IMG/VR virus record: IMGVR_UViG_3300046009_013085
Location: 1 to 29,823 of that record
DNA from: a virus
Reading direction: 5' to 3' (one strand)
Length of the DNA: 29,823 nucleotides
The translations under genes and the position numbers were made by a program. This document shows, one piece after another, positions 2,041 through 14,808 of the stretch; position 1 is the stretch's first letter, and each line of letters begins with the position of its first letter. Below the pieces are notes generated by a model. The model did no database searches. It had not been told where the DNA came from and was given only the letters and a program-made list of their open reading frames with translations.

Positions 2041-2072
2041 TATAAATAGTCTTTAAATCGGAAATGTTACAA
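2041..2072 (-). promoter_or_regulatory. Candidate phage promoter (TTG / TATTTATA) upstream of the 112-aa gene
   Basis: On the minus strand TTG (2072-2070) is followed after exactly 21 nt by TATTTATA (2048-2041), 15 nt before the ATG. The -33-like block reads TTATTGTAA and overlaps the last two Leu codons and stop of the spanin-like gene. The same block, spacing and box recur at 7456-7487. Layout matches the Bacteroidetes -33 TTG / -7 TAnnTTTG pattern with an altered -7 box. No experimental support. Confidence 0.5.
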
Positions 2073-2474
2073 TAAAAGTAGTATTGTTATTATAAAAATA
2101 CCACCACTAGTTATGTAAGAAATATTTTTTTGTTTTTTATGAACTTTTATATTATGATTTAAATCTGAGATGTGACTATCCTTTGTTTCAATAACCTTAT
2201 CTTTAGCGGTTATAATCGTATCTTTTTCTGATATGATATGTTTCTGATCAATAATAATACTATCCTTTTCCAGTGATTGTTTTGTAATTAAATTAAGACT
2301 ATCTCTTGTAACACCTATTTCAGCTTTTAATAACTGGTGATCCTTTTTAAGGGTCAAAGCGTTTCTTATTGCTGTACAAGGTACGCAACAGGTTGAATCA
2401 CTTAAATTCGTTTGCGAAAGAGCTGGATAGCTGACTGCTAGACATAGTATTAATACGGTTAATATCTTGTTCAT
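2067..2474 (-). CDS. Outer/second spanin-like protein (signal peptide, coiled coil, C-terminal TM)
   Basis: 135 residues. An N-terminal signal sequence (about residues 1-21, likely cleaved after ALS) is followed by a Cys-rich motif (CCVPC, residues 29-33), a long polar coiled coil (about 45-115) in which ISEKD and ITAKD-type units repeat, and a C-terminal hydrophobic segment (about 117-135). The start lies inside the preceding gene in another frame (77-nt overlap), as in Rz/Rz1-type nested spanins, and both sit just downstream of the amidase-like gene. Unlike typical o-spanins I see no convincing lipobox, and the C-terminal anchor recalls unimolecular spanins. I recall similar proteins (signal peptide, Cys-x-Pro, coiled coil) from Bacteroidetes phages. 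The lysis role is inferred from topology and context. Confidence 0.6.
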   Translation of the reverse strand: MNKILTVLILCLAVSYPALSQTNLSDSTCCVPCTAIRNALTLKKDHQLLKAEIGVTRDSLNLITKQSLEKDSIIIDQKHIISEKDTIITAKDKVIETKDSHISDLNHNIKVHKKQKNISYITSGGIFIITILLLL

Positions 2475-2736
2475 GTACTTTTTTTTCCTTATTTAGTTTA
2501 TTTTTTAAACCAGCTAACTCAGTATCAAATGCTGCAATTTTAGCGTTTCTATTTTTAACAGATTCATTTAAAGAATCTATTTTTAAATCACTTTCTGTAA
2601 TTGTCATGTTTAATGAATCAATTGTTTTTTGGTAGTGGCTTGTATCAATTATGACATTTTTTTTATTAAAAATACTCATATAGATTAAAAAACCAATACC
2701 TAAAGAAAATATTAAAAATATTATGTTTTTTTTCAT
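2398..2736 (-). CDS. Inner-membrane spanin-like protein (Rz-like)
   Basis: 112 residues with a short basic N-terminus (MKKN), one transmembrane helix (about residues 5-22) and a periplasmic coiled coil to the end, rich in Asp/Ser/Leu/Lys heptads (repeated KIDSLN/TIDSLN-type units). This is the topology of i-spanins such as lambda Rz: N-in, single-pass, with a coiled-coil ectodomain spanning the periplasm. Its last 77 nt overlap the start of the next gene in a different frame, the classical arrangement of two-component spanins. The start follows the stop of the 186-aa gene almost directly (TAATAATG). Sequence identity to Rz is not visible; the call rests on topology, size and neighbourhood. 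It could alternatively be another small membrane coiled-coil protein. Confidence 0.6.
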   Translation of the reverse strand: MKKNIIFLIFSLGIGFLIYMSIFNKKNVIIDTSHYQKTIDSLNMTITESDLKIDSLNESVKNRNAKIAAFDTELAGLKNKLNKEKKVHEQDINRINTMSSSQLSSSFANEFK

Positions 2737-2738
2737 TA

Positions 2739-3299
2739 TTACAAAGGGTTTTGTGTTTGTTTGTTTTGTGTAATCTTAATCAAAGCGTTTCTACCAATTT
2801 GTCGGTCATTATATGATCTACTAGTTGTGTTCAATAAATTTAACAAATCTTGGTTTAAAATCAAGGTTCCACCGATTAAATTAATTTTAGGGTCCTCATC
2901 GTTAGTATCAATCACAATTTCTTTAACAACATCTAAAGTTGGGTTTTTAATAACATCAGCTGTTAAAATTACACGACCATTTTCTAATCTGATATTAACG
3001 TATGGTAACATCAAACCAGTTGCATCAATAAAATCACCGATAACTTTCGTAAATTCAGTTTTACTTTCATCAGATAACTGAACATCATCAGCTTTGCTCA
3101 AATAACCAACTGTGTTAATTTTGTCAAATGTTAATTCCTCACCGTCTTTTGATTCAATATCAACAGGTTTTGTTCTAACCATCTCATCGTTCTCATTTAA
3201 TAATGATTTAGTTTTTTTAATTGATTCTTGTAATTGAACTGTTCTTACTTTGTTTAGTAATGACTTAATGTCATCGTAGTTTTTATCGTTGTTGTTCAT
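2739..3299 (-). CDS. Hypothetical protein, possible structural/accessory
   Basis: 186 residues, soluble, no signal peptide. The first 70 residues are charged and helical; from about residue 75 a compact mixed domain follows, with alternating hydrophobic strands (around residues 93-148). The last 40 residues are basic and Asn/Gln-rich. I do not recognise a family. Its start overlaps the amidase-like gene's end by 17 nt and its stop abuts the Rz-like gene, so it is co-transcribed with the lysis genes; whether it has a lysis function is unknown. Confidence 0.75.
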   Translation of the reverse strand: MNNNDKNYDDIKSLLNKVRTVQLQESIKKTKSLLNENDEMVRTKPVDIESKDGEELTFDKINTVGYLSKADDVQLSDESKTEFTKVIGDFIDATGLMLPYVNIRLENGRVILTADVIKNPTLDVVKEIVIDTNDEDPKINLIGGTLILNQDLLNLLNTTSRSYNDRQIGRNALIKITQNKQTQNPL

Positions 3300-3909
3300 A
3301 TTTGTATCCCTTATTTATTAATTCATTTATTTTCTTAAAATCAGCTGCTGGTGACAAATCGTAGTTGTTTTTTGTATAATTACTCCTATTCAATATCCCT
3401 CTTTGCGTATTTGGTTTGTTTATAACAATATTATTTCCTATAAAATCTTTTATTATGTTATATTCTATACATAAATAGTCTATTAATTCTGCAAGTTTCA
3501 TATACTGTTCCTCAGAATAAGTGGCCCAATGTCTTTTATTTCTCCAAGGTATTTCAACAACGTCTCCAAGGTATTCAGAACCTTTCCAGGTAAAATATTT
3601 ACCCAAAATAAGATCTTTACTTAACCAACCAACATTTTCCAAACAAATAGTTATTGAGTTTTTTTCTATTTGTTGTTCCAACATAAGCATACTATAGTAT
3701 TTAGGATCAAAGTGTTGGTAAATTTCACCGCTTTGTGAAATAAAAAAACACGGTAATCGGTTATATTTACCGTTGTACCGTGTTTTAATTTTTGTCAAGT
3801 ACTCATCCATAGTACATGACGTATGTGTAAGAATTATTTGTTTCTTTTTGGTTTTGTTTTTCTGTATATTTTCGTTACTTTCAAAGTAATATTCCTTATT
3901 TACCACCAT
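3283..3909 (-). CDS. N-acetylmuramoyl-L-alanine amidase-like endolysin (Amidase_2 type)
   Basis: 208 residues. The fold of type-2 amidases (T7 lysozyme/PGRP) is suggested by IILTHTS with His29 as first zinc ligand, a central 'I-S-Q-S-G-E-I-Y-Q' strand typical of the 'G.iyql' element, ITICLEN (Glu91), and a C-terminal 'RGILNRSNY...YDLSPAADF' block that resembles the family's GH.....K.DPG...F element. In that block the expected second His is not seen (about residues 172-175 read I-L-N-R), while Asp184 could be the third ligand. The enzyme would cleave the MurNAc-L-Ala bond in peptidoglycan; no signal peptide is present, so release would need a holin. It overlaps neighbours on both sides (14 and 17 nt). 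A catalytically weak or binding-only variant is possible. Confidence 0.65.
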   Translation of the reverse strand: MVVNKEYYFESNENIQKNKTKKKQIILTHTSCTMDEYLTKIKTRYNGKYNRLPCFFISQSGEIYQHFDPKYYSMLMLEQQIEKNSITICLENVGWLSKDLILGKYFTWKGSEYLGDVVEIPWRNKRHWATYSEEQYMKLAELIDYLCIEYNIIKDFIGNNIVINKPNTQRGILNRSNYTKNNYDLSPAADFKKINELINKGYKYEQQR

Positions 3910-4735
3910 CTTTTGTGAAAACCATAATATTTTCTATTCCATTATTTTTAATCTCATTGGTTTTATCGTAAACAGGATAGTTTTCTAAATTGTTTTCAGT
4001 TGTAGGTTCTTCAATAACTGGTTCCTCAACAATTTCTAACTCTTTTTCAACTTGCGCTTCAACTAAAAACTCTTCTTCAAAGTTGTCATCTGAATCATCA
4101 AAAGGTTCATCAATTTCATATGGTGTAAAAGCTAAAGCTGTTGGTTCATCAACTAAAACCTCTTCACTTATTTCAGGTGATTCATTAAGTTTTTCCTGAG
4201 CTTTTTCCTTTTCTTCGTTTAAGTTTTTTTCTTTTTCTTTTCTTATGTATTCACTAATACCACCATCATCAATTATAACGTCAATACCTTTTTCTTCTTC
4301 AGTTTCTGGTCTAATATAATCCACCAATGATTTAATAAAACCTAAAGCTACTAATGGTAAGATCGCACCACTAACAATTGATAATATTCTTTTCTGTTCA
4401 ATAGGGTCACTATCAACAAAACCAAATAACTCAATCCATGGTTGATAATTGGTTAAATGGGTATAAGCGAAAAAAGCGTTACCCATCGCCTGCATTGCTG
4501 TTAATATAAAAAATAAAAACCACACAATACCCTTATTCATTTTTTTAAGGGCTATAATAGATGCTAATGATGCGGCAGCACCAACTTCAAAAGCCAAAGC
4601 TAATGTTACGGCTAACCACTTAGGATTTGATAATTCAAAGAAATCAATTACGTGGATTGTTGATATACAACTCGTTAAGATATACAATAAAACAAATGTT
4701 GTTATAACAAATTTATTTATTAAATTTTGATTCAT
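3896..4735 (-). CDS. Four-TM membrane protein with acidic C-terminal tail
   Basis: 279 residues. Four hydrophobic helices are visible (about residues 8-29, 38-62, 69-93 and 116-141), followed by a 135-residue tail extremely rich in Glu/Asp with repeated EEP/VEEP-like units. I do not recognise a family; a holin role is conceivable because the amidase-like gene follows, but large tails of this kind are not typical of holins. The start lies 23 nt inside the 3' end of the homing-endonuclease gene. Codons 1-28 strongly resemble the separate 31-codon ORF at 5527-5622, indicating that the homing endonuclease split this gene from its original start and supplied a replacement one. The ATG at 4735 is supported by that similarity. 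Confidence 0.8.
   Translation of the reverse strand: MNQNLINKFVITTFVLLYILTSCISTIHVIDFFELSNPKWLAVTLALAFEVGAAASLASIIALKKMNKGIVWFLFFILTAMQAMGNAFFAYTHLTNYQPWIELFGFVDSDPIEQKRILSIVSGAILPLVALGFIKSLVDYIRPETEEEKGIDVIIDDGGISEYIRKEKEKNLNEEKEKAQEKLNESPEISEEVLVDEPTALAFTPYEIDEPFDDSDDNFEEEFLVEAQVEKELEIVEEPVIEEPTTENNLENYPVYDKTNEIKNNGIENIMVFTKDGGK
4658..4699 (-). repeat. Copy 1 of duplicated 5' coding segment of the membrane-protein gene
   Basis: On the minus strand ACATTTGTT, TTGTAT and ATATCAACA occur with the same spacing as in 5539-5580. The copies are diverged between these blocks but stay in the same reading frame. They flank the homing-endonuclease gene as a degenerate direct repeat. Confidence 0.75.
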
Positions 4736-5507
4736 AATCTTTTTTATATTTATAATATGTTGGTTCTTTTATCAGCATTATATCCATAATACTTTGTTTT
4801 GTCTTATTTTGTTTTATATATTCACCAAACACTAATAATTTTTCATTATATTTTTTACGTTTATTTTCAGAACGCGTTTTGATCCCATTTTTATATTTTT
4901 CAGAGTTTCTAACACCATCACTTATTTTATTCTTATGGTTATCACTTAAAATAACATTTTTACGGTTATCACAATAATTAATCAAATTATTTATGCGCTT
5001 TCCAGATTCCCATTCACATTTTAATCGATCACTAAGTTGATTTTTGTAATCAATACTATGTATCGGTTTACCTGTTTTAGTTTTAATCATTTTTTCCTTT
5101 TGGTCAAAATCTAATGGTTTACCAAAATTAGGATTCTTATCACCTAACCAATTCAATCTTCTTAGCTCTCTAAAATTTTCTAAATTTTTATTATTAGACC
5201 AAGTATCACCACCATCACCACCTAACGTACCGTTGTAACCATTATTAAAGGAATCATAAACACCAACGTAGTGTTTTTCACGTTCATTAACGTTGAGTTC
5301 TGTTAAACCATCTTCTATAAGAAACCAAACAAGATTATCACCCTCAGCAAGAATACAATCATAAAATTTATGAGAATTTGTTTTTCTTTTAGCCGCTGTA
5401 TAATGTTGTTTTTTTCTTTTTAATAAATCATGTTTTGTTTTACCAATATAATGTTTATTTGATTTTGGGTTTAGTACTCCGTATATTTTATATGTGATAG
5501 TATCCAT
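4713..5507 (-). CDS. GIY-YIG homing endonuclease with NUMOD3 DNA-binding repeats
   Basis: 264 residues. The N-terminal nuclease domain (about 1-100) shows the KIYG...HYIGKT form of the GIY-YIG signature (residues 7-24), the catalytic-type Arg in LLKRKKQHY (R31), a Glu in NEREKHYV (E75/E77), and the NGYNGTLGGDGG end motif. It is followed by a NUMOD3-like motif (GDKNPNFGK, residues 122-130), a second similar stretch (LSDNHKNKISDGVRNS) and a C-terminal helix-turn-helix-like region. This is the layout of free-standing phage homing endonucleases of the I-TevI/Seg type, which nick or cut a related genome and spread by repair. It lies between the ArdC-like gene and the membrane-protein gene, flanked by a diverged direct repeat of the latter's 5' end. 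A TATTTATA box ends 3 nt before its ATG. Confidence 0.92.
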   Translation of the reverse strand: MDTITYKIYGVLNPKSNKHYIGKTKHDLLKRKKQHYTAAKRKTNSHKFYDCILAEGDNLVWFLIEDGLTELNVNEREKHYVGVYDSFNNGYNGTLGGDGGDTWSNNKNLENFRELRRLNWLGDKNPNFGKPLDFDQKEKMIKTKTGKPIHSIDYKNQLSDRLKCEWESGKRINNLINYCDNRKNVILSDNHKNKISDGVRNSEKYKNGIKTRSENKRKKYNEKLLVFGEYIKQNKTKQSIMDIMLIKEPTYYKYKKDYESKFNK

Positions 5508-5510
5508 ACA

Positions 5511-5518
5511 TATAAATA
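5511..5518 (-). promoter_or_regulatory. TATTTATA box immediately upstream of the homing-endonuclease start
   Basis: The minus strand reads ACTATTTATATGTATG, identical in the ACTATTTATAT part to the element upstream of the 112-aa gene. Only 3 nt separate the box from the ATG, so a transcript would be leaderless or begin inside the gene. No TTG sits 19-21 nt upstream, so it may be a partial promoter. Confidence 0.3.
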
Positions 5519-5526
5519 GTTATATT

Positions 5527-5622
5527 TTAACAAAAATTTGTTGATATCAAAGACACCATCACATACAACGTAACAAATGTTCCAATTATAAAGTTTTTTG
5601 TTATTTTATTTTCTACTTGCAT
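5527..5622 (-). pseudogene. 31-codon remnant of the original 5' end of the membrane-protein gene
   Basis: A complete small ORF of 31 codons plus TAA begins at the ATG complementary to 5620-5622, overlapping the ArdC-like gene's TAA by one base. It encodes a polar N-terminus and a single hydrophobic helix, ending at Cys-stop. Over 20 aligned positions it matches residues of the 279-aa membrane protein's first helix at 11 sites (F.I.TFV.LY....S.IST, no gaps), and three DNA blocks are identical with the same spacing. I read it as the decapitated start of that gene, cut off by the homing-endonuclease insertion. It could still be translated as a tiny membrane protein. Confidence 0.7.
5539..5580 (-). 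repeat. Copy 2 of duplicated 5' coding segment
   Basis: Partner of 4658-4699. Blocks AACAAATGT (5572-5580), ATACAA (5563-5568) and TGTTGATAT (5539-5547) on the plus strand match 4691-4699, 4682-4687 and 4658-4666 with identical offsets. Confidence 0.75.
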
Positions 5623-7154
5623 TAATTCAAAATTGTTTTAAATGTGTTTTTTGCTTCGTTAATTTCTTTCATAACCTCATCAAGTGAGTCTTCTTTTCTA
5701 CCCAAAGGAGCTTTTAATAATTTTGCTACCTCACCTTGGCTAACTAAATCACCGTAGATTTGTTGTTCTTCAGCCTCGTCCATAACAATATGTTTATTAA
5801 TGGCTTTAATGATAATATTAGAAGTTGTTGTTATTACATCCAGATTACCAATAATACTATCTCTACTACCCTTCCATAAAGCAATATAGTTTATAGCATA
5901 TTTTAAATCTGGTACATCAAATGATCTTAATACAACGTATGCAACGGATTCAGCTTGCAATTCCAAAATTTCAGACATGTTTCTACCAACATAAGCATCC
6001 ATAATGTGTTTTGTTTTTTCGCCTAGATTAGCATCAGAAGTACCTGATTTCTCAGCTTCAGCTTTTGTTTTAAGGTATTTCTGGTGCATTAACTCATGTG
6101 CAAATTCATGCACTGCTGTAGAAGCTTTACCAATACCAGCACTATCGCTAGAAATTCTAACTTTACCACCAGCTGAATACCCCTTTTCACCACCCTTAGC
6201 ATCTTCAACAGCAAAATCAATACCATAATCCTCGTAAACTTTAACCATCGCATCAAAGATTTTATCAGCAATCGGGTTTTCTTCAGTACTAAACCAATCT
6301 AATTCAGGTTTTTCAACACTAGATGCTCCCTCACCTTTGTCATTTACAACATCAGAAATATCATATACAGGGTATAAGACAAAAGGTGTTGTTGCGATTG
6401 GATCATTAATCATTTTTTCCATCTTTTGTTGCATTTCTGGTGTTAGTTTACCACCTTTACCAAACTTTTTTATAAATTCTTCTTTTCTTGTCTTTTTAGT
6501 AAAAGCGGTAGGTGGTTTAAGTGTCGGTCTCCATATGATAATTTGTTGTGCTCCTTCTTTTGGTATATAACCCAACTTAGACCAACCAGATCTAGAATTA
6601 ACTTTTGTTGAATCTCTTTTTTGAATGTAAATCAAAATTTGGTTATTAAATGAATAACCTGGAAATTTAGCCAACCAATCAAAATAATCTTTAATTTTTT
6701 CTGTTAATCTAACACTATCAACCTCATCAGCTAATTCATTGATAAAACCGTCAATTTTCTTAACAATATCATCTTTCGTTACATCAGTTTCTGGTGCAAT
6801 AGGTGCCGACTTAACAGCATCTTTAACATCCTCAAGCTTTTGTATTAATTCATTAGCTTCATTTGACCCACCCAAAGATTTATTTGCTTCTGCAACAGCT
6901 TTTTTAGCAATTTCAATAACGGTTTCAATCGGTTTAAATTTATCGTTTAACCACCATTGTTTATTGGTGTTATCCCACATAAAACCGTTTCTCTTTAATA
7001 TATCTTTAGCTGCAATTACTTCTTTTGTAGCGGCATTAGGGTCTTCTAAATCGGAGACAACGATAACTCTATTTGATCCGAATTGGTCTTTAACGACTTT
7101 AGCTAAAGTTAAAGCCTCATTAACTGATGATTTTGTGTGTTTAAATATTAACAT
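5622..7154 (-). CDS. ArdC-like ssDNA-binding domain plus zincin metallopeptidase (polyvalent protein)
   Basis: 510 residues with three parts. Residues about 1-85 form a small domain with GFMWDNTNKQWW, a pattern seen at the N-terminus of phage polyvalent proteins. Residues about 135-215 resemble the ArdC N-terminal ssDNA-binding domain (FPGYSFNNQILIYIQKRD...GWSKLGYIPKEGAQ). Residues about 295-420 are a gluzincin-like peptidase: HEFAHELMH (H349, E350, H353) with a likely third ligand in ELQAES (E402), as in the ArdC/IrrE-related group. ArdC proteins protect incoming DNA from restriction, and polyvalent phage proteins of this kind may be injected with the genome; this is inferred from the family. 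The Lys-rich linker (about 215-250) is less conserved. The gene follows the 97-aa membrane protein by 4 nt. Confidence 0.85.
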   Translation of the reverse strand: MLIFKHTKSSVNEALTLAKVVKDQFGSNRVIVVSDLEDPNAATKEVIAAKDILKRNGFMWDNTNKQWWLNDKFKPIETVIEIAKKAVAEANKSLGGSNEANELIQKLEDVKDAVKSAPIAPETDVTKDDIVKKIDGFINELADEVDSVRLTEKIKDYFDWLAKFPGYSFNNQILIYIQKRDSTKVNSRSGWSKLGYIPKEGAQQIIIWRPTLKPPTAFTKKTRKEEFIKKFGKGGKLTPEMQQKMEKMINDPIATTPFVLYPVYDISDVVNDKGEGASSVEKPELDWFSTEENPIADKIFDAMVKVYEDYGIDFAVEDAKGGEKGYSAGGKVRISSDSAGIGKASTAVHEFAHELMHQKYLKTKAEAEKSGTSDANLGEKTKHIMDAYVGRNMSEILELQAESVAYVVLRSFDVPDLKYAINYIALWKGSRDSIIGNLDVITTTSNIIIKAINKHIVMDEAEEQQIYGDLVSQGEVAKLLKAPLGRKEDSLDEVMKEINEAKNTFKTILN

Positions 7155-7158
7155 TTGA

Positions 7159-7452
7159 TTATTTGTTTTCCAAAGCGTTTATTTGTTTATCAATTTCAGC
7201 TTGTCTGGTAACATCTAACATTTTTCTATCGGTTGACTGGATCATGCGTTTTTCGGCTCTAAGACCCTCAACTCTTAAATCTTCATGTGTAACCACGGTC
7301 ATTTCCAATGAGTCCACTTTATTAGACATTTTGTCAATTCTTTTATTCAGACTTCTTACATCACTATTACATGTTCTCATGAATAGTAATACTAACATAA
7401 CCAAGACTATCTTAGTAAAATGTTTATTCAAAATTTGTTCGATTTTGTTCAT
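7159..7452 (-). CDS. Small single-pass membrane coiled-coil protein
   Basis: 97 residues: a short N-terminal amphipathic segment, one hydrophobic helix (about residues 14-27, IVLVMLVLLFM), then Arg-Thr-Cys and a coiled coil (SLNKRIDKMSNKVDSLE) reaching about residue 50, with a charged tail. Predicted topology is N-in with the coiled coil outside, again spanin-like in outline, but no partner lipoprotein lies beside it. I do not recognise a family. A promoter candidate (7456-7487) ends 3 nt before its ATG, and no internal Met would give a longer leader while keeping the membrane helix intact. Confidence 0.7.
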   Translation of the reverse strand: MNKIEQILNKHFTKIVLVMLVLLFMRTCNSDVRSLNKRIDKMSNKVDSLEMTVVTHEDLRVEGLRAEKRMIQSTDRKMLDVTRQAEIDKQINALENK

Positions 7453-14208: not shown

Positions 14209-14808
14209 TTATTCGAAAATTTCTTTCATGTGGGCAAAAGCAAGCATAACTGTGTAAGAATCAGACATATCAAAATTTTCTTTTTTTAATTGACCTTTTT
14301 TGTCTAATAACCAGTTAATTTGGGGTTCTCTTTTAGATACTCTATCCCAAATAAGTTTTTTCTTATCAACATCTTTAGGTAATCCACCAAATAAAACAAG
14401 TTTTCCAGTGCTTCCTGGTTGCATAAACTCAGGAAATGCATATTTCCTAGCCTCATAAGTGGAGATGTATTCTGGTACAACACCAATCACGTCATAACAT
14501 ATCTTGGTAATCATACCATTAAAACGTAATAAGGTACCAACGGTGTTAACGTTGTTTGATCTTAATAACGGTTCCTCGATAACCACATGTTTAATGTTGA
14601 GTGTTTTATACTTCTGTATAAAATCATAAAACAAATCGGATTTTTTGATAAGCTCCTCAGTCTTTGTTTTAGGTTCGGGTTTAGCTTTTGGAGAAATATG
14701 TGTTAACTCCAAAAGCTCTCCTTTATTGTTGAATAGTGAAATCCCAATTGTTTTGGTTGACACATCTAACCCAAGTAAGTAATATTCTTCTTGTACTTCT
14801 TTTACCAT
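14209..14808 (-). CDS. RuvC-like Holliday junction resolvase (RNase H fold)
   Basis: 199 residues. The RNase H-fold catalytic acids are visible: LLGLDVSTKTIGISLF (D15), HVVIEEPL (E78/E79) and the C-terminal FDMSDSYTVMLAFAH (D180, D183). The insertion between the second and last acid (about 120-175) is like that of phage resolvases related to RuvC and poxvirus A22. It would resolve branched DNA during recombination and before packaging. It lies 10 nt after... reading in transcription order, the 624-aa structural gene starts on its other side; the resolvase starts the replication block, separated from the primase by a 41-nt gap with promoter and palindrome. Confidence 0.88.
   Translation of the reverse strand: MVKEVQEEYYLLGLDVSTKTIGISLFNNKGELLELTHISPKAKPEPKTKTEELIKKSDLFYDFIQKYKTLNIKHVVIEEPLLRSNNVNTVGTLLRFNGMITKICYDVIGVVPEYISTYEARKYAFPEFMQPGSTGKLVLFGGLPKDVDKKKLIWDRVSKREPQINWLLDKKGQLKKENFDMSDSYTVMLAFAHMKEIFE

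Follow-up and report, generated by a model that had tools for sequence, protein, structure and literature searches.

A putative GIY-YIG homing gene inside a phage membrane-protein gene, with a replacement for the gene start that it displaces

Introduction

A free-standing GIY-YIG nuclease gene interrupts the coding sequence of a phage membrane protein, and is followed by a second, rewritten version of the gene start that it displaces. The reading favoured here, at a probability of roughly 0.86, is that this is a homing gene residing within a coding sequence and carrying a replacement for the gene part that it cuts off, with cleavage and homing presumed from the sequence. The window that was analysed is the whole 29,823-nt stretch of IMGVR_UViG_3300046009_013085.

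In general, free-standing homing genes are thought either to be harmless by virtue of an intergenic position, or to leave split genes behind. A nuclease inside a coding sequence that brings its own repair would be the strategy of gene-drive engineers, occurring naturally in phages. It would also explain how a conserved phage gene acquires a foreign start, which would mislead both gene trees and gene calling. An earlier, sequence-only reading of this DNA described the one case; the phenomenon is not a one-off, as a second, different nuclease does the same at a RuvC-like gene (see below). With two nucleases, two target genes, and the states before and after insertion at hand, the mechanism is directly testable.

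Anatomy of the insertion

On the minus strand, the order of genes is an upstream gene, a 31-codon ORF (5622-5527), the GIY-YIG nuclease gene, the membrane-protein gene and an amidase gene (Table 1). The upstream gene has no match in Pfam or PHROGs, and the label 'ArdC-like' previously attached to it finds no support in either. The 31-codon ORF reads MQVENKITKNFIIGTFVTLYVMVSLISTNFC up to its stop, and the membrane-protein gene begins MNQNLINKFVITTFVLLYILTSCISTIHVIDFF. The insertion point lies after codon 28 of the native membrane-protein gene, that is, inside the coding sequence and not in an intergenic position. The small ORF leads nowhere after its 31 aa, and a complete replacement start is present in the downstream copy; the target is not left as two separate polypeptides working together.

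Table 1. Coordinates of the inserted element, its surroundings and the second target gene in the window.
Feature	Position	Strand	Basis or remark
Upstream gene, HExxH motif, intact	5622..7154	(-)	Stop overlaps remnant ATG (TAATG)
Remnant: original first 28 codons of membrane-protein gene	5539..5622	(-)	89% nt identity to intact L002 start
5' edge of element, gives remnant an in-frame stop (...ACA/AATTTTTGTTAA)	5527..5538	(-)	Aligns with L006 edge (...ACA/ATCTTTTATTAA) at the same position
Entire insertion of 881 nt, from 5' edge through nuclease gene to junction at end of replacement start	4658..5538	(-)	Not in L002/L082, whose identity to the window extends across both flanks of the site
TATTTATA box, 3 nt before nuclease ATG	5511..5518	(-)	Common to nuclease genes of L006 and L103; putative role
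GIY-YIG homing endonuclease gene, 264 aa	4713..5507	(-)	Pfam, PHROGs
23-bp overlap coding for nuclease C-terminus and new membrane-protein start	4713..4735	(-)	Same overlap in L006
Replacement start, 26 codons, rewritten relative to native start	4658..4735	(-)	Groups with L006 replacement start, not with own remnant
9-bp direct repeat ATATCAACA, left copy, end of remnant	5539..5547	(-)	
9-bp direct repeat ATATCAACA, right copy, end of replacement start	4658..4666	(-)	
Target gene, membrane protein	3896..4735	(-)	Returns to native sequence at 4657
N-acetylmuramoyl-L-alanine amidase gene, next gene downstream	3283..3909	(-)	Pfam Amidase_2, E 1.3e-8
RuvC-like resolvase gene, intact native start; empty site for second element (occupied in L103)	14209..14808	(-)	phrog_159; start compared with L103

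The similarity between the two starts was already apparent from the letters alone. Three DNA blocks, ACATTTGTT, TTGTAT and ATATCAACA, do recur in both copies with identical spacing, the nuclease gene does lie between the copies, and the small ORF does begin in the TAATG overlap with the upstream stop. The claimed residue match of 11 of 20 holds in its count and not in its length: over the last 22 codons before the junction, 11/22 residues (50%) and 67% of the bases are shared. When 18,487 stop-free 22-residue stretches from all six reading frames of the window were compared with the remnant, none but the remnant itself matched better than the start of the membrane-protein gene, which scored 58 (next unrelated stretch, 26); none of 200,000 shuffles reached the observed score.

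The arrangement is found again in a second contig of 7,060 bases, 7,058 of which align at 99.99% identity. As this contig is near-identical, and as the same architecture recurs in a different phage (L006), the arrangement is not an assembly error.

Empty and occupied sites

A membrane-protein search of viral contigs gave 104 relatives, 80 of which were kept. In the nearest one (L002/L003, also read as L082), the upstream gene is 85% identical at the amino-acid level and runs via GAATTAATGCGATCAGAAAATAAATTAACAAGAAACTTTATAATTGG into one intact membrane-protein gene, with no nuclease. The same holds for L030, in which the upstream gene likewise passes through TAATG into a single intact gene. This is what the sequence-only reading had predicted for phages lacking the nuclease, including a first helix like that of the remnant. 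L004, L025, L042 and L048 are empty too, each with one intact gene and no nuclease, and in more distant phages the membrane-protein gene is intact behind a different small gene, mostly with TAATG coupling. The intact starts of the close nuclease-free relatives L002 and L030 match the remnant, which bears out the suggestion that the small ORF is the ancestral start. Two starts, or a small ORF together with a full-length gene, were found in none of the relatives examined that lack the nuclease; the latter combination had been named as one that would speak against the insertion.

The second occupied site is in L006 (IMGVR 3300017917_002656), whose nuclease is 70% identical to that of the window over its whole length. 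Its remnant reads MNKENVTKNFIIGTFVTLYVLVSLISTIFY before the stop, and its new start MNQKLIDKFVIGSFVVLYVLTSCISTIHVIDFF. The insertion point is identical in both phages, directly after ATATCAACA; both elements open with an A/T-rich edge holding an in-frame stop for the remnant, and in both the end of the nuclease gene overlaps the new start, as had been noticed for the window, by 23 bp. Presence and absence thus alternate at one fixed site, which is occupied in the window and L006 and empty in L002, L004, L025, L030, L042 and L048.

Ancestry of the remnants and replacement starts

The remnants are as close to the native starts of their own nuclease-free relatives as the neighbouring genes are. 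The divergence comparison proposed earlier puts the window's remnant (Table 1) in line with its neighbouring genes, which are 86-90% identical to those of L002; the L006 remnant and the native start of L025 share 86% of nucleotides, with neighbouring genes at 82-83%. The replacement starts are only 75% (window/L002) and 63% (L006/L025) identical to the native starts at the nucleotide level. They resemble each other, at 78% of nucleotides in this comparison, and at 77% amino-acid and 76% nucleotide identity over 22 codons. A tree built from the last 22 codons joins the two replacement starts (UFBoot 97) and places the L006 remnant with L025 (97). On the basis of these nucleotide identities and the tree, the remnants come from the host phages and the new starts from the element; the replacement start thus travels with the nuclease.

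These relationships bear on two other explanations. The first is a duplication of the gene start within the genome, with later entry of a nuclease gene between the copies. Two related starts with a nuclease gene between them are indeed what this would leave; however, the window's new start shares more with that of L006 (77% aa, 76% nt) than with the remnant beside it (50% aa, 67% nt), and no relative has two starts and no nuclease, so that such an origin is highly improbable.

The second is a single old insertion that predates the split between the window's phage and L006, followed by precise losses in lineages between them, with the remnant kept as a small functional membrane peptide. In its favour, the nucleases have diverged about as far as the host genes (75% and 76% nt identity, respectively), the remnant retains its TAATG coupling, and codon differences between the two remnants are mostly synonymous (11 synonymous, 2 amino-acid-changing). 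However, the closeness of each remnant to its own nuclease-free relatives means that losses must have restored host-type starts exactly in several lineages, and the small ORF is kept separately in no nuclease-free phage. The synonymous excess also means that the remnants were still constrained as coding sequence until recently, a point in favour of two separate insertions, albeit from a short alignment that is not proof. A single old insertion is accordingly judged improbable. For the window's element, no gradient of flank identity was seen in comparison with L002, so the case for its recent homing rests on the comparison of remnant and flanks.

A second element at a RuvC-like gene

The contig of L006 (read as L103) carries another insertion. 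At L103:2694-4090, a different GIY-YIG nuclease gene, with NUMOD3 motifs, stands in front of a RuvC-like resolvase gene. A remnant, MIKKEIQEEFYLLGLDVSTKT plus stop, precedes the nuclease, and a new start, MKKTNDNEYYLLGLDVSTKT, follows it and is joined to IGVSLFDNKG. The insertion is flanked by an 18-bp repeat, GATGTGTCAACCAAAACA. In the window and five other relatives the RuvC-like gene is uninterrupted, and its start resembles the remnant (81-93% DNA identity).

A one-sided gradient of identity is the trace that remains when a break made by a nuclease is repaired. Downstream of the L103 insertion, identity to L025's virus is 96, 97, 95, 93, 92, 88, 88, 92 and 91% in successive 100-nt intervals, and 76-90% from about 900 nt onwards; on the upstream side it is 78-89% over 800 nt. 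The decaying downstream tract is typical of homing.

L025's virus itself has a RuvC-like gene with a replacement-type start and no nuclease (L231, about 1392-1489). A 19-aa intergenic ORF in L231 resembles the N-terminus of the second nuclease. This relic peptide, MLYIYRLFESHTNEASYVR, has that nuclease as its best match, with none of 5,000 shuffles scoring as well against that nuclease alone and 48 of 2,000 doing so against the best of all nucleases. As the peptide overlaps a TATTTATA motif, it is a weak indication of a scar left by a lost element, and the new start of L006's RuvC-like gene may instead be native to the L025 lineage.

Proposed mechanism

When two phages infect the same cell and one of them is without the element, the nuclease of the other would cut its membrane-protein gene in the native start, at ...ATATCAACA/AT or close to it. 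Break repair with the donor phage as template would then bring in the nuclease gene along with the rewritten start. Of the old start, a 28-codon remnant would be left, closed by the stop at the 5' edge of the element. The target gene would begin anew at an ATG that adjoins or overlaps the nuclease gene's end, allowing full-length protein still to be made. The rewritten start would keep the protein and change the DNA upstream of the junction; together with the split target, it would also stop self-cutting. Nuclease activity, the position of the cut, self-resistance and translation from the new start are all predicted from the arrangement of the genes and from the comparison with relatives.

Ordinary mosaic recombination, with a breakpoint at the nuclease gene and no site-specific cleavage, deserves consideration because phage nuclease genes are often found at recombination boundaries (PMC10448857). 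It would have to account for an identical insertion point in two phages, for short direct repeats exactly at the junctions of all three insertions, and for the same anatomy with two different nuclease families; we regard it as quite improbable.

A self-splicing group I or II intron encoding the nuclease is also conceivable; the remnant would then be spliced to the native remainder, and the new start would be irrelevant. Joining ...ATATCAACA to ATCCACGTA does recreate the native protein exactly, and insertion at one point inside a coding sequence is the habit of homing introns. However, Rfam searches of all three insertions at permissive thresholds returned chance matches only. There is also too little non-coding sequence: besides the nuclease gene, the element has no more than some 31 nt ahead of that gene and the new start of 78 nt. 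Furthermore, an intron has no need to bring along an in-frame homologue, 26 codons long, of the exon it follows; such a copy is present in both phages, and the pattern is repeated at a second gene with a different nuclease. We consider a spliced intron extremely unlikely. The intron-less homing event that restores the gene it splits, as originally proposed, is supported by the empty sites, by L006 and by the lack of an intron in these searches; cutting by the nuclease, and homing as the route, would be the most plausible way to reach this state.

Occurrence

Further copies of the window's nuclease were sought by an alignment scan of viral contigs, with a C-terminal pattern and with the pattern LTSxISTIHVID, and only the window's virus and L006 were recovered; a scan of genome contigs yielded no relative, and a phage collection no match. 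A screen of 7,743 pairs of small ORFs and gene starts in related loci returned only the three insertions in the window, L006 and L103. Among 123 ORFs with a GIY-YIG pattern from other viral contigs, 111 were testable; a start duplication was found at none of these loci, and a 3'-end duplication at one. In the latter (L139:2549-4511; IMGVR 3300001598_000103), a gene that is DNA-ligase-like by inspection has its 3' end in two copies, of which the second supplies the C-terminus of the GIY-YIG nuclease ORF beside it. The first copy, before the nuclease, reads LIAWRNDKLPQDCQWSQVE and the second, which closes the nuclease ORF, LINWREDKKPEECEWSQLQ, each followed by a stop. As in the present element, a GIY-YIG nuclease lies beside a conserved phage gene, but with the 3' end duplicated it is a mirror image. 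The strategy looks uncommon, not unique.

Relation to known systems

The nearest precedent is provided by the mobile ORF endonucleases (mORFs) of fungal mitochondria, known from atp6 of Allomyces macrogynus and from atp6, atp9, cox2 and nad3 of Glomus (PMC3630166). In both cases, an endonuclease gene in a coding sequence is accompanied by a divergent copy of the displaced part, the native part persists as a remnant matching relatives, and the result is a hybrid gene. The mORFs replace the carboxy-terminal end, whereas the phage element replaces the start together with its translation initiation; in addition, the mORFs are mostly LAGLIDADG enzymes with one GIY-YIG case (atp9), and the present phage elements are GIY-YIG.

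Among phages, the Seg endonucleases of T4 are likewise GIY-YIG enzymes of a large tailed phage without intron or intein (PMC2988022). Their genes are intergenic and they cut hundreds or thousands of bases away, whereas the present element sits inside its presumed target and brings a repaired start. Closer in position are mobE in Aeh1 nrdA and mobA in T4 gene 60, free-standing nuclease genes inside conserved phage genes (PMC2988022). Their targets stay split, as two polypeptides that assemble; the present target is made whole again by the replacement start.

In function, the element comes closest to an engineered home-and-rescue gene drive, and would work in much the same way. HomeR pairs nuclease-driven insertion into a gene with recoded sequence for the 22 or 27 residues that are lost (PMC7968924); the corresponding parts here comprise 26 and 20 codons. 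HomeR is synthetic, uses Cas9 in flies and recodes 3' coding sequence, whereas the present element is natural, resides in phages and concerns the 5' end. Gene-start replacement in phages was not found in the literature searched, which did not include most subscription journals and thus gives no proof of novelty.

Whether large tailed phages host a class of natural home-and-rescue elements is a question on which we would place even odds. Different GIY-YIG nucleases would then target the 5' ends of conserved genes and carry a rewritten, cut-resistant start as the only functional one. Such a start may persist as a scar after loss of the nuclease, as the RuvC-like gene of L025 hints, leaving foreign N-termini.

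Properties of the nuclease and its target

The nucleases of the window and L006 score 25.6 and 28.5 bits, respectively, against the Pfam GIY-YIG model (PF01541; cut-off 22.6), and that of the window matches the homing endonucleases of phrog_314 (E 2e-15). Its structure model is poor except for the C-terminal helices, too poor for a fold search.

The target membrane protein is predicted, in a model of moderate confidence, to have four long helices on its N-terminal side (3-36, 39-62, 68-93 and 111-141), and it has an acidic tail. The model (mean pLDDT 60.5) has no PDB match at E <= 0.001, and the family has no match in Pfam or PHROGs. Residues F9, I11, F14, V15, L17, Y18, S22 and I24-I30 of the window's protein are invariant in 18 aligned relatives, which accords with a rewritten start that keeps the protein. 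With the amidase gene next to it and a weak match to an Rz-like spanin not far off (minus strand of the window, 3283-4735 and 7159-7452), the gene may be part of a lysis cassette, perhaps encoding a holin-like protein.

The motif TATTTATA occurs shortly before gene starts in these phages in 10 of 149 cases, with 0.3 expected, and is probably a phage promoter element, possibly one that gives very short leaders. In the window it is found at 5518-5511, 7463-7456, 22513-22506 and 2048-2041 (minus strand), 3-17 nt before an ATG. Both nuclease families have the box 3 nt before the ATG, and it may drive nuclease expression. Elsewhere in the window, two small genes overlap at 2067-2736 (minus strand). 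They look like a pair of inner and outer spanins: one has an N-terminal membrane anchor, the other a signal-like start.
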